Below are positions 808 through 3,419 of a stretch of 40,064 nt of DNA, one piece after another (within the stretch, counting starts at the first letter, position 1; every line of letters begins with the position of its first letter). The notes below the pieces were generated by a model, which did no database searches, was not told where the DNA came from, and saw only the letters and a list, made by a program, of their open reading frames with translations. The DNA lies in IMG/VR virus record IMGVR_UViG_3300047461_000329, positions 1-40,064 of that record, one strand, 5' to 3'. A program made the translations under genes and the position numbers. Source of the DNA: a virus.

Positions 808-1392
808 TTACACCATAAATAATTCTAGCTTTTTAGCTTTAGCTGCAGCTTTTTCTTCCTTTGCAAATTGTTTAATTGCTTCGTCTTTAGTCTTAATAAC
901 ATCAATACGGCTTTTTAATTGATCAACATAAGCTCTTGTATCTGATGCTGCTTGTGCATCCATTCCCATGTCCATGAAATCTTCTACACCCATGCGTTCA
1001 ATAAATCGATGCTTTATATCCTGTTGCTTTTTCTCCTTTGTAATACGTCTAATAAAGGCAAAGAAACAAATCTGAGTGAAGTATGAGAAGGCATTAGGAT
1101 TGCCAGTACGAGTTGCTGTATCAATATTATAATTACGAATCGCTCTTAAACAATTCTCTACAGCATCCATTACCATTTCATCTCTATAAGTGTACCGAAC
1201 AAAGTTCGGTCTGTGAGACAGGCCTTCGGATATTTTCATAAAACACGTAGCAATATAGTCCGTTACCTTTGGTGTTACATCACCTCTAGCTTCGGCTTCA
1301 TTGACTGATTTAACATAATCAACAACAGCATAAGAAAACTCCCTGTTGTTAACGTAATGCGGTTTCTCTCTTGGTTTTAGTTTTTTGGTCAT
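808..1392 (-). CDS. gp55: RNA polymerase sigma factor for late transcription gp55
   Basis: Phage sigma factor that redirects host RNA polymerase to TATAAATA late promoters, working with the gp45 sliding clamp and gp33. It is 194 residues, against 185 in T4. Residues about 70-125 form the sigma region 2-like core, including NPNAFSYFTQ and the basic RRITKEKKQ segment. The C-terminal LELFMV tail is hydrophobic, consistent with the clamp-binding tail of T4 gp55 (inference). The start at 1392 is supported by a GGAG ribosome site eight bases upstream. A sigma70-type promoter directly precedes it (1416-1444), as expected for a gene that must be read before late promoters can fire. At least seven matching late promoters lie in this same window. 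Confidence 0.93.
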   Translation of the reverse strand: MTKKLKPREKPHYVNNREFSYAVVDYVKSVNEAEARGDVTPKVTDYIATCFMKISEGLSHRPNFVRYTYRDEMVMDAVENCLRAIRNYNIDTATRTGNPNAFSYFTQICFFAFIRRITKEKKQQDIKHRFIERMGVEDFMDMGMDAQAASDTRAYVDQLKSRIDVIKTKDEAIKQFAKEEKAAAKAKKLELFMV

Positions 1393-1415
1393 GTGTTGTT
1401 CTCCATAATATGTAT

Positions 1416-1444
1416 ATTATAACACAGTTTTCGTAGAATGTACA
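1416..1444 (-). promoter_or_regulatory. Sigma70-type extended -10 promoter driving gp55
   Basis: Minus-strand reading gives TGTACA, a 17-base spacer and TATAAT, with TGT immediately before the -10 (extended -10). Predicted transcription start is near 1409, giving a leader of about 17 bases that contains the GGAG site of gp55. The boxes and spacing are seen directly; activity is inferred. Confidence 0.7.
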
Positions 1445-1468
1445 CAGTTAAATTATTTTAAAAAAAGG

Positions 1469-1497
1469 TGTACATTTGCGAGAAAGTATGTTATAAT
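1469..1497 (+). promoter_or_regulatory. Divergent plus-strand sigma70-type promoter, mirror of the gp55 promoter
   Basis: Plus-strand TGTACA, 17-base spacer, TATAAT, preceded by TGT. It shares TGTACATT and TGTTATAATA with the oppositely facing gp55 promoter, with twelve differing bases between. A transcript starting near 1504 would run antisense into the 3' end of the 124-residue gene. No plus-strand gene downstream looks real, so the product, if any, would be a non-coding or antisense RNA. Confidence 0.5.
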
Positions 1498-1537
1498 AAT
1501 ATAGTTCCCGGGGAGGGTAGAGGTATACTATATTATT
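1495..1537. repeat. Perfect 10-bp inverted repeat with a GC-rich loop
   Basis: AATAATATAG at 1495-1504 pairs with CTATATTATT at 1528-1537 around a 23-base spacer that contains CCCGGG and GGGAGGG, unusually GC-rich for this genome. It overlaps the -10 and start region of the plus-strand promoter and abuts the stop of the 124-residue gene. It could be a regulator site, or a weak terminator for the uvsY-uvsW message. It has no U-run, so a standard intrinsic terminator is unlikely. Confidence 0.5.
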
Positions 1538-1911
1538 TAATGTACTGTATCAGGTTTATCAGGTATCAAAGTCGGGATCTCAGGTTCATCTTCAATTCCA
1601 TTATCAATATCAGTCATGTCTTGAGTCTTTTCCTCAAAGTCAAGAGCAAACTTAATGTAAGCTCTTTTTATGTTATTAGCAACATCAGCATGTGCAACTA
1701 CCATCGATCTTTCGATGGTAAAGGTATTGCTTAATGAGAGATCAAACCAAGGTACTAATTGGTATGCATCATGTTTATGTTGATTGATTTCAACTTTAAA
1801 TGGTCTATCTATTATAAAATTAGTTTCATTATGATTTGCCACTAATCCTATAATCTCATCTCCATTCATGAGCTTAAATTGGCGAATATGTAAGTCGTCT
1901 AGTTCGATCAT
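1537..1911 (-). CDS. Hypothetical protein, 124 aa, possible small beta-barrel
   Basis: Function not recognised. The N-terminal 60 residues look like a small beta-barrel: the stretch FKLMNGDEIIGLVANH resembles the strand-turn-strand opening of Sm/LSm-like or SH3-like folds (inference from pattern only). The C-terminal 25 residues are acidic and proline-rich, probably disordered. Its ATG overlaps the uvsW stop as ATGA, so it is translated with the recombination helicase. It is the last gene before the gp55 promoter region. A plus-strand ORF on the same bases is rejected as a shadow. Confidence 0.8.
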   Translation of the reverse strand: MIELDDLHIRQFKLMNGDEIIGLVANHNETNFIIDRPFKVEINQHKHDAYQLVPWFDLSLSNTFTIERSMVVAHADVANNIKRAYIKFALDFEEKTQDMTDIDNGIEDEPEIPTLIPDKPDTVH

Positions 1912-3419
1912 ATTTTTATTTCGTATACCTTGTATTTGAATTTCTCTTTATTATATATCTTTATTCTTTCTGCCGCATGATTTAGTGTATAATTCTTTTT
2001 ACTCTTCCAATGTAAATCATCTGCAATATCATATACCTTTGTTGCTTTACCATCTGCAGACTTACGTAATCCACGGCCAATTGATTGAAGTACTCTTATC
2101 TGTGACTTCGAAGGTGAAGCAAAGATTATATTGTTTAACCTTTTTATATTTATACCCGTGGAGAATGTACCAACAGATGCCACAATAATCGCATCAGATT
2201 CTCCTTCAGTGATAGCCCTTATCTGCTCGCGATCGTCCACCCCCGTTTCTCCAGATACATAAAACAACTTACGATTGGTTCGTTCCATTGCTTCTAGTTT
2301 ACTCTTTAGCATATCATGTAATGGCTTACCATGTTTATCTACATACTGAAAAAGTATAAGTGTATTACCATCTTGATCTAAAGCAAGGTTAGATATAAAC
2401 TGATTACGAGGATCGTGTCTTACAATAAAGTCCATTTCCTCTTGATACTTAACCTTAGATATCTGTTTACAATATTCATCAGCATACTTTAATAACAATA
2501 CTGATACACTTAAATCAGCCAAATCCTTCGAATCAATTAACTGTTTAGTAGTTGTTACTTTATGTACTGGTCCAAATAAACCTTCGAGAACTAACTGATG
2601 TGTTTGTGTTCCATCTAATGTACCAGTTGTGCCGATTCTATATTTAGCATTACCACACTTTTCAAGTATTGCAGTTAATGACTTAGCTTTAAAGTTATGT
2701 GCTTCATCACCAACAACCATACCAAAGTCCTGAAACCAAGCAGGACGTTCTTTATAAATCGATTGCCATGTACTAATCACTACACGTTTTCTTATATCAT
2801 ACTTTTCTTTACCACCATAAATCCTATGACAATCTTCTTCAACATTCCATTCATCATATTGACTATAATCACCAAAATCAGAATACATTTGCTCAACCAA
2901 TGATGTAGTCGGTACAATCAATAATATATTACCTTCATCATACGTACTTAAATAATACCGTATCGCCATGTATATGATTAAAGACTTACCAGATGCAGTC
3001 GGTGAAAGTAACAAAGATTGTCTATTACTCAATGCATGATGTACTGCTTCTTTCTGATAATCTCTAGCTTCAATCTTATCGCCACCCGCAGTTAAATGTA
3101 ATTCATCTAGCAATGCAGGTACATCAATATTCTCTGTAATATCTGGCCGACCATAGTTATCGTTATTCTCAATTTCTATCTCATAATCTCGAGCGGTGGC
3201 AAACTCACAAAGATACTTATACAAACCAGTATATAAAAGCTTTTTACGAAGATCATACAAACGTATTTTTCCGTCCCACATACGATTCTTATATGCGGGC
3301 ATAAACTTATATCCTGGCACATAGAAACAAAAATGATCTGATAGTTCTTGCTCTATACCAGCATCAGTTTGTATATTAAGGAATACGTGATTTGCTTTAG
3401 ATATTACAATCTTATCCAT
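1908..3419 (-). CDS. uvsW: UvsW superfamily 2 DNA/RNA helicase
   Basis: ATP-dependent helicase that unwinds R-loops and branch-migrates recombination intermediates, helping T4-type phages switch from origin-dependent to recombination-dependent replication. It is 503 residues, matching the T4 protein. An N-terminal DNA-binding segment of about 100 residues precedes the motor domains. Walker A is SPTASGKS (residues 139-146), the DEAH box is at 238-241, a TTGT motif is near 264-267, and motif VI QSIGRGLRK is at 445-453. All helicase motifs look intact. The start codon shares one base with the uvsY stop (TAATG) and the stop overlaps the next start (ATGA), so uvsY, uvsW and the 124-residue gene form one coupled unit. 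Confidence 0.96.
   Translation of the reverse strand: MDKIVISKANHVFLNIQTDAGIEQELSDHFCFYVPGYKFMPAYKNRMWDGKIRLYDLRKKLLYTGLYKYLCEFATARDYEIEIENNDNYGRPDITENIDVPALLDELHLTAGGDKIEARDYQKEAVHHALSNRQSLLLSPTASGKSLIIYMAIRYYLSTYDEGNILLIVPTTSLVEQMYSDFGDYSQYDEWNVEEDCHRIYGGKEKYDIRKRVVISTWQSIYKERPAWFQDFGMVVGDEAHNFKAKSLTAILEKCGNAKYRIGTTGTLDGTQTHQLVLEGLFGPVHKVTTTKQLIDSKDLADLSVSVLLLKYADEYCKQISKVKYQEEMDFIVRHDPRNQFISNLALDQDGNTLILFQYVDKHGKPLHDMLKSKLEAMERTNRKLFYVSGETGVDDREQIRAITEGESDAIIVASVGTFSTGINIKRLNNIIFASPSKSQIRVLQSIGRGLRKSADGKATKVYDIADDLHWKSKKNYTLNHAAERIKIYNKEKFKYKVYEIKI

Follow-up and report, generated by a model that had tools for sequence, protein, structure and literature searches.

A conserved backward-facing promoter at the 3' end of an Sm-like gene in marine T4-like phages as a candidate source of cis-antisense transcription

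The DNA analysed here, referred to below as the window, is an IMG/VR virus record of 40,064 bases that represents part of the genome of a marine T4-like phage. All genes identified in it lie on the minus strand, among them uvsY, uvsW, a gene for a 124-amino-acid (124-aa) protein and gp55 (Table 1). A similar gene order is found in the cultured phage C48C1, in Pelagibacter phage HTVC008M and in Methylophilales phage Melnitz, as well as in the cyanophages P-SSM2, P-SSM4, P-RSM4 and Syn30. Two promoters pointing in opposite directions occupy the gap between the 124-aa gene and gp55: one serves gp55, and the other faces back into the 124-aa gene. On the backward strand of the same gap in Melnitz-2, a 31-aa CDS is annotated (locus L082, 2426-2521, minus strand), which is probably a spurious gene call.

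Table 1. Genes and sequence features at the locus, in window coordinates.
Feature	Position	Strand	Remarks
gp55, late-transcription sigma factor	808-1392	-	Downstream of the 124-aa gene
gp55 promoter	1416-1444	-	TGTACA 1444-1439, TATAAT 1421-1416; same class as the backward promoter and its separable neighbour
Backward (antisense) sigma70-type promoter	1469-1497	+	-35 TGTACA 1469-1474, -10 TATAAT 1492-1497
Possible antisense RNA	1504-1670	+	If the weak terminator at 1643-1670 is used; terminator not conserved, end uncertain
Small inverted repeat CCC-GGGGA-GGG	1507-1517	+	Pairs over just 3 bp in the window; lies at about +4 to +14
Conserved purine-rich start of the predicted transcript, GGGGAGGGTAGAGGTATACTA	1510-1530	+	Single copy in the window
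Gene of the 124-aa Sm/LSm-fold phage protein (PF16243 family)	1537-1911	-	Stop codon 1539-1537; target gene
uvsW helicase gene	1908-3419	-	Upstream of the LSm gene, with a 4-base overlap
uvsY	3865-3419	-	Identified in the window

Profile matches and a predicted structure indicate that the 124-aa gene encodes a protein of the Sm/LSm fold, and it is called the LSm gene in the following. The orthologues of P-SSM4 and P-RSM4 match the Pfam family Sm_like (PF16243) at 8e-44 and 1.3e-43, and a profile of the family matches the phage Sm-like protein of PDB entry 3by7 (2.5e-17) and the TIP60 designs (5.7e-19). The window sequence alone stays below the Sm_like cut-off (13.4 against 29.4 bits, E 0.09), and a BLAST search of named phages with the 124-aa protein itself returned nothing, so that profile methods are needed. 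Modelled with AlphaFold2 (pLDDT 87.5), the window protein consists of strands and a C-terminal helix; in a structure comparison its top matches are again 3by7 and the TIP60 designs, followed by other Sm/LSm proteins. The window protein thus has fold and family in common with 3by7, also a PF16243 member, but the two are only about 22% identical over the aligned part, and the window protein is extended by a helix at the C-terminus and by an acidic tail, modelled with low confidence, that ends in TVH. Outside the P-SSM4-type cyanophages, the C-terminus nearly always ends in a final His, usually as T-(I/V/L)-H. The 'methylamine utilization' label carried by cyanophage copies of the gene looks like a misannotation.

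The two promoters are built alike. Each has a 17-bp spacer that ends in TGT (extended -10), and 24 bp (CAGTTAAATTATTTTAAAAAAAGG) separate their -35 boxes, all at the places described in an earlier note on this DNA. Initiation at the backward promoter is predicted at about position 1504. When sites are scored on the -35 and -10 boxes, their spacing and the extended -10, exactly one per strand reaches this level in the 40 kb, compared with about 0.04 per strand expected from first-order Markov sequence. The runner-up sites on the plus strand score clearly lower, in agreement with the earlier note, which saw here the only plus-strand signal in 40 kb. A looser consensus scan of the first 6 kb found promoter-like sites without excess (23 against 24.2 expected), and the case for the promoter therefore rests on the quality of the site and on its conservation. 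With near-consensus boxes at 16-18 bp, an extended -10 and conservation, the site has the features of a sigma70-type promoter, and its boxes are kept rather than lost in almost all relatives, which bears out the proposal that it is real. Two observations concern promoters elsewhere. In the lineage that comprises the window and the contigs G001, G002 and G003, TGTACA replaces TTGACA as the -35 box of most strong promoters, together with the extended -10 TGNTATAAT. Melnitz-2 (W02, 72881-73060, minus strand) carries three tandem near-consensus promoters on the strand opposite to most genes, possibly for another non-coding transcript.

Conservation of the backward promoter follows the LSm gene. 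Among 215 distinct ends of this gene, from marine T4-like phages of SAR11-, methylotroph- and cyanobacterium-type, 202 (94%) have a backward promoter within 90 nt of the stop codon, mostly 25-40 nt past it. The same criterion applied to control ends gave 9 of 288 for gp55 (3%) and 0 of 264 for uvsW (0%). The promoter is present in nearly all of 80 IMG/VR relatives, with a spacing of exactly 17 bp in 72, and its boxes are near consensus across relatives. A further 240 loci were drawn by means of P-SSM4-, HTVC008M- and C48C1-type gp55; the best backward site has 17-bp spacing at 102 of 103 window-type and at all 83 P-SSM4-type loci, and mostly 16-bp spacing in the HTVC008M type. At about 40 loci, nearly all of the C48C1 type, other genes split the LSm gene from gp55, leaving a gap of 330-1857 nt. 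From reading their sequences rather than from a family search, we take these genes to be mostly cytidylyltransferase-like and otherwise to encode a methyltransferase, peroxiredoxin or oxygenase. A near-perfect backward promoter nevertheless stands about 29-36 nt after the LSm stop codon at nearly all split loci, and gp55 is usually still preceded by a good forward promoter. Because the backward promoter stays in place when unrelated genes intervene, the comparison assigns it to the LSm gene and not to gp55. Its retention at 94% of the 3' ends of one gene, despite changes of neighbour, constitutes strong comparative evidence of function. The gap itself is an insertion spot in C48C1-type loci (such as L293, L300 and L324), most often for a cytidylyltransferase-like gene.

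The same data bear on the mirror-image arrangement of the two promoters, which the earlier note ascribed to duplication or a shared regulator. A single regulatory unit that arose in this way could set the timing of gp55, and the -35 boxes are indeed close, 24 bp apart in the window and often only 4 bp in cyanophages (TTGACA-N4-TGTCAA), so that the two promoters may exclude each other. The arms agree at 21 of their 29 positions and at only 4 of 12 in the variable core, which places the likeness in the boxes. Whole-arm identity in the window's group is marginally higher for promoters of the same locus than for swapped pairs (19.0 against 18.4 of 29, P 0.02), whereas in three of four groups the two cores of one locus resemble each other no more than cores from different loci do. 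Nor does the pair stay together, since at the split loci the backward promoter remains with the LSm gene. A divergent pair under a shared regulator, recognisable by staying together and by resemblance beyond the boxes, was not found, and this reading is already largely refuted and hardly credible. The arms look alike because TGTACA-N15-TGNTATAAT is the common promoter of this phage lineage: the 113-kb contig G001 has 17 such sites, 16 of them forward, and its single backward copy is the promoter at the LSm end. The mirror-image match is, on this evidence, incidental, and the pair is not a functional unit.

Beyond the -10 box, conservation runs for about 30 nt and then fades. This stretch includes the purine-rich start of the predicted transcript, which reads GGGGAG...AGAGGTATAC in the window. 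An 11-bp inverted repeat (AATAATATAGT...ACTATATTATT, 1495-1537) surrounds it in the window; elsewhere only the closest relatives have it, and these only in part. Many ordinary promoters of the same genomes reach a ribosome-binding site and start codon within a few tens of bases. Plus-strand ORFs downstream of the backward promoter show no conservation among the relatives, neither in length nor in sequence, which upholds the earlier view that no real gene follows. A small ORF with its start codon opposite the conserved C-terminal His was rejected as a candidate, given that it often runs straight into a stop codon. The earlier note also proposed an antisense or small RNA over the end of the uvsW operon; the promoter does point antisense into the operon end, and the RNA itself is a prediction. 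Its 3' end is uncertain, as no antisense intrinsic terminator is conserved among relatives, and the weak one in the window (AGAGC-loop-GCTCT followed by a T run, -6.1 kcal/mol) is confined to it. The RNA may consequently have no defined end. No Rfam family reaches its gathering score, and a permissive scan of 1380-2000 gives chance-level matches only.

A small RNA that acts in trans, or is bound by the LSm protein, would be expected to have its active piece in the conserved 5' part, formed by the purine-rich stretch and the small inverted repeat. Conservation does peak at the extreme 5' end, which in the P-SSM4-type cyanophages is better conserved than the promoter spacer, and the neighbouring gene encodes a protein of the Sm fold, which is often RNA-binding. 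Such an RNA would nonetheless lack a conserved terminator or defined 3' end, and its 5' sequence is very different from group to group. A check of genomes and contigs for extra copies or trans targets gave the locus itself as the sole complement in each, with no partial copy of note elsewhere. In most groups, moreover, the 5' arm of the repeat would fall outside the RNA. A trans-acting or LSm-bound RNA seems quite improbable.

The small repeat of the window is the counterpart of a covarying repeat in its relatives. HTVC008M-type loci carry AGACT-ATGT-AGTCT, GGTCT-ATGT-AGACC or AACGG-TGT-CCGTT, and C48C1-type loci CAAAA-TACC-TTTTG or AAGGC-ATCA-GCCTT. Arms pair better with their own partner than with swapped ones in the HTVC008M and C48C1 types (P<=0.0005 in both) and in the window's group (P 0.008); in the P-SSM4 types, where the arms hardly vary, P is 0.14. 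The repeat begins 0-3 nt past the -10 box in three groups, which puts the predicted start inside its loop or close to it; in the window's group the distance is mostly 7-10 nt. Since most groups have the 5' arm ahead of the expected start, the repeat may act as single-stranded DNA within the initiation complex, or in sense RNA produced by read-through. As to the strand on which it would act as RNA, the count of G-U against A-C pairs is balanced in the window and C48C1 groups and slightly favours the plus strand in the HTVC008M and P-SSM4 types, and in the window's group the minus strand has the better folding energy. Two simpler explanations of the repeat were discarded. It is unlikely to belong to the 3' end of the operon, because its distance from the -10 box is nearly fixed within a group while that from the stop codon varies. 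Nor is it a general feature of promoters: among the other strong promoters scanned in the genomes and contigs, few carry a repeat of at least 4 bp, and none has one regularly tied to the -10 box.

A start region of this kind could also belong to an R-loop replication origin like T4 oriF, in which hybridised antisense RNA would prime replication until removed by UvsW. The transcript start in the window's group does strongly favour an RNA:DNA hybrid (-0.206 kcal/mol per nt, compared with 0.00 for 67 other promoters); uvsY and uvsW adjoin the site, and T4 UvsW unwinds origin R-loops (PMC3016281). In the other groups, however, the preference is weak (-0.025 to -0.081). The first 30 nt are poor in A+T (fraction 0.51-0.62); the value then climbs to 0.64-0.73, compared with about 0.62-0.68 at greater distance, so that the sequence past the first 30 nt is near background and offers no clear A+T-rich unwinding element. 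The GC-skew turning point lies away from the site in 7 of 7 genomes or contigs, although skew is confounded by gene class. We regard an origin at this site as very unlikely.

The explanation that we favour, with somewhat more confidence than doubt, is that the uvsY-uvsW-LSm operon carries at its 3' end a cis-antisense promoter that would limit expression of the operon by antisense RNA, by polymerase collision, or by both. The host's RNA polymerase, carrying the main sigma factor, would initiate a non-coding RNA near 1504 that overlaps the LSm gene at its 3' end and may continue into uvsW, thereby limiting LSm output and read-through past the gene. By one route, the two RNAs would pair and be cleaved by a nuclease, as with lambda OOP on cII; by the other, converging polymerases would collide, as proposed for lambda pO against pR. 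The sequence comparison itself shows the promoter and where it lies, its link with the LSm gene instead of gp55, the conserved start, and the lack of a conserved ORF and, nearly everywhere, of a sense terminator. That the promoter is transcribed, how long its RNA is, whether RNAs pair or polymerases collide, and what this does to LSm are inferred from it. The promoter and the first 30 nt or so of the RNA are conserved and its body is not, a pattern that fits action in cis through full complementarity. As nearly all sampled marine T4-like viruses keep this promoter, they probably make a hitherto unrecorded antisense RNA at the LSm gene. Three findings weigh against this cis-antisense explanation: no antisense terminator is conserved, simple antisense pairing does not account for the covarying repeat beside the -10 box, and 13 of the 215 LSm ends have no recognisable backward promoter.

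The unconserved RNA body could equally be expected if the promoter worked as a backstop and not through RNA. Bound or departing polymerase would then block the polymerases of the uvsY-uvsW-LSm operon, replacing a missing terminator and shielding what lies downstream. Only 1 of 224 cases has a sense-strand intrinsic terminator after the LSm gene, a finding that supports the cis-antisense explanation as well, and the promoter keeps its place just past the stop codon whichever gene comes next; convergent interference has, moreover, been proposed as the way in which lambda pO acts on pR. A pure backstop leaves the conserved purine-rich start and the covarying repeat unexplained, and we consider it unlikely, if still worth serious attention. 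An unlikely but far-reaching idea concerns the whole family: marine T4-like phages would encode, at one locus, an Sm-like protein and, started from a promoter retained beside the stop codon, an opposite-strand non-coding RNA that regulates this protein or is bound by it. The start site within the loop of a covarying inverted repeat would in such an RNA circuit be a promoter-linked structural element, a kind of which we know no example from elsewhere.

Antisense RNAs of phages are already known, and a 2010 review lists CfrI as the single experimentally confirmed one in T4-like phages (PMC2984593). The open literature searched, which does not extend to the Syn9 transcriptome (doi 10.1038/ismej.2015.210), contains no mention of an LSm-tied antisense promoter with a covarying repeat, and earlier RNA-seq evidence may exist. 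T4-like phages are among the most abundant marine viruses, and the antisense signal described here is linked to an Sm-like gene. Cultured phages such as HTVC008M and P-SSM4 allow direct testing.

Three known systems invite comparison. T4 oriF and oriG resemble the LSm site in having a promoter near recombination genes, and the window's group shares with them a start that favours R-loops (PMC3016281); the LSm site differs from them in its lack of the downstream A+T-rich unwinding element and of the skew signal. Lambda OOP RNA has a 52-base overlap with the end of cII and acts by RNase III-dependent cleavage, and its promoter pO also lowers oncoming transcription from pR, for which convergent interference has been proposed (PMC5869508, PMC3985674). 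OOP has a defined terminator, tO, a length of 77 nt and a tested RNase III action, whereas the LSm element is known from sequence, has no conserved terminator of its own to give a short RNA, and carries beside its -10 box a covarying inverted repeat that sets it apart from pO/OOP; no homology is claimed. What the two have in common is a sigma70-type promoter just past the stop codon of the target and pointing back at it, a non-coding transcript that overlaps (in the LSm case, is predicted to overlap) the 3' end of the target, and a site between a gene of an operon and the next gene. Finally, CfrI of cyanophage S-PM2 is an experimentally detected RNA of about 225 nt tied to psbA and a homing endonuclease gene (PMC2984593, PMC12197685), unlike the LSm-tied element predicted here. 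It is nevertheless a precedent from a T4-like cyanophage, and the likeness is that in both cases a T4-like marine phage has, or for the LSm gene is predicted to have, an antisense RNA encoded where a gene ends.
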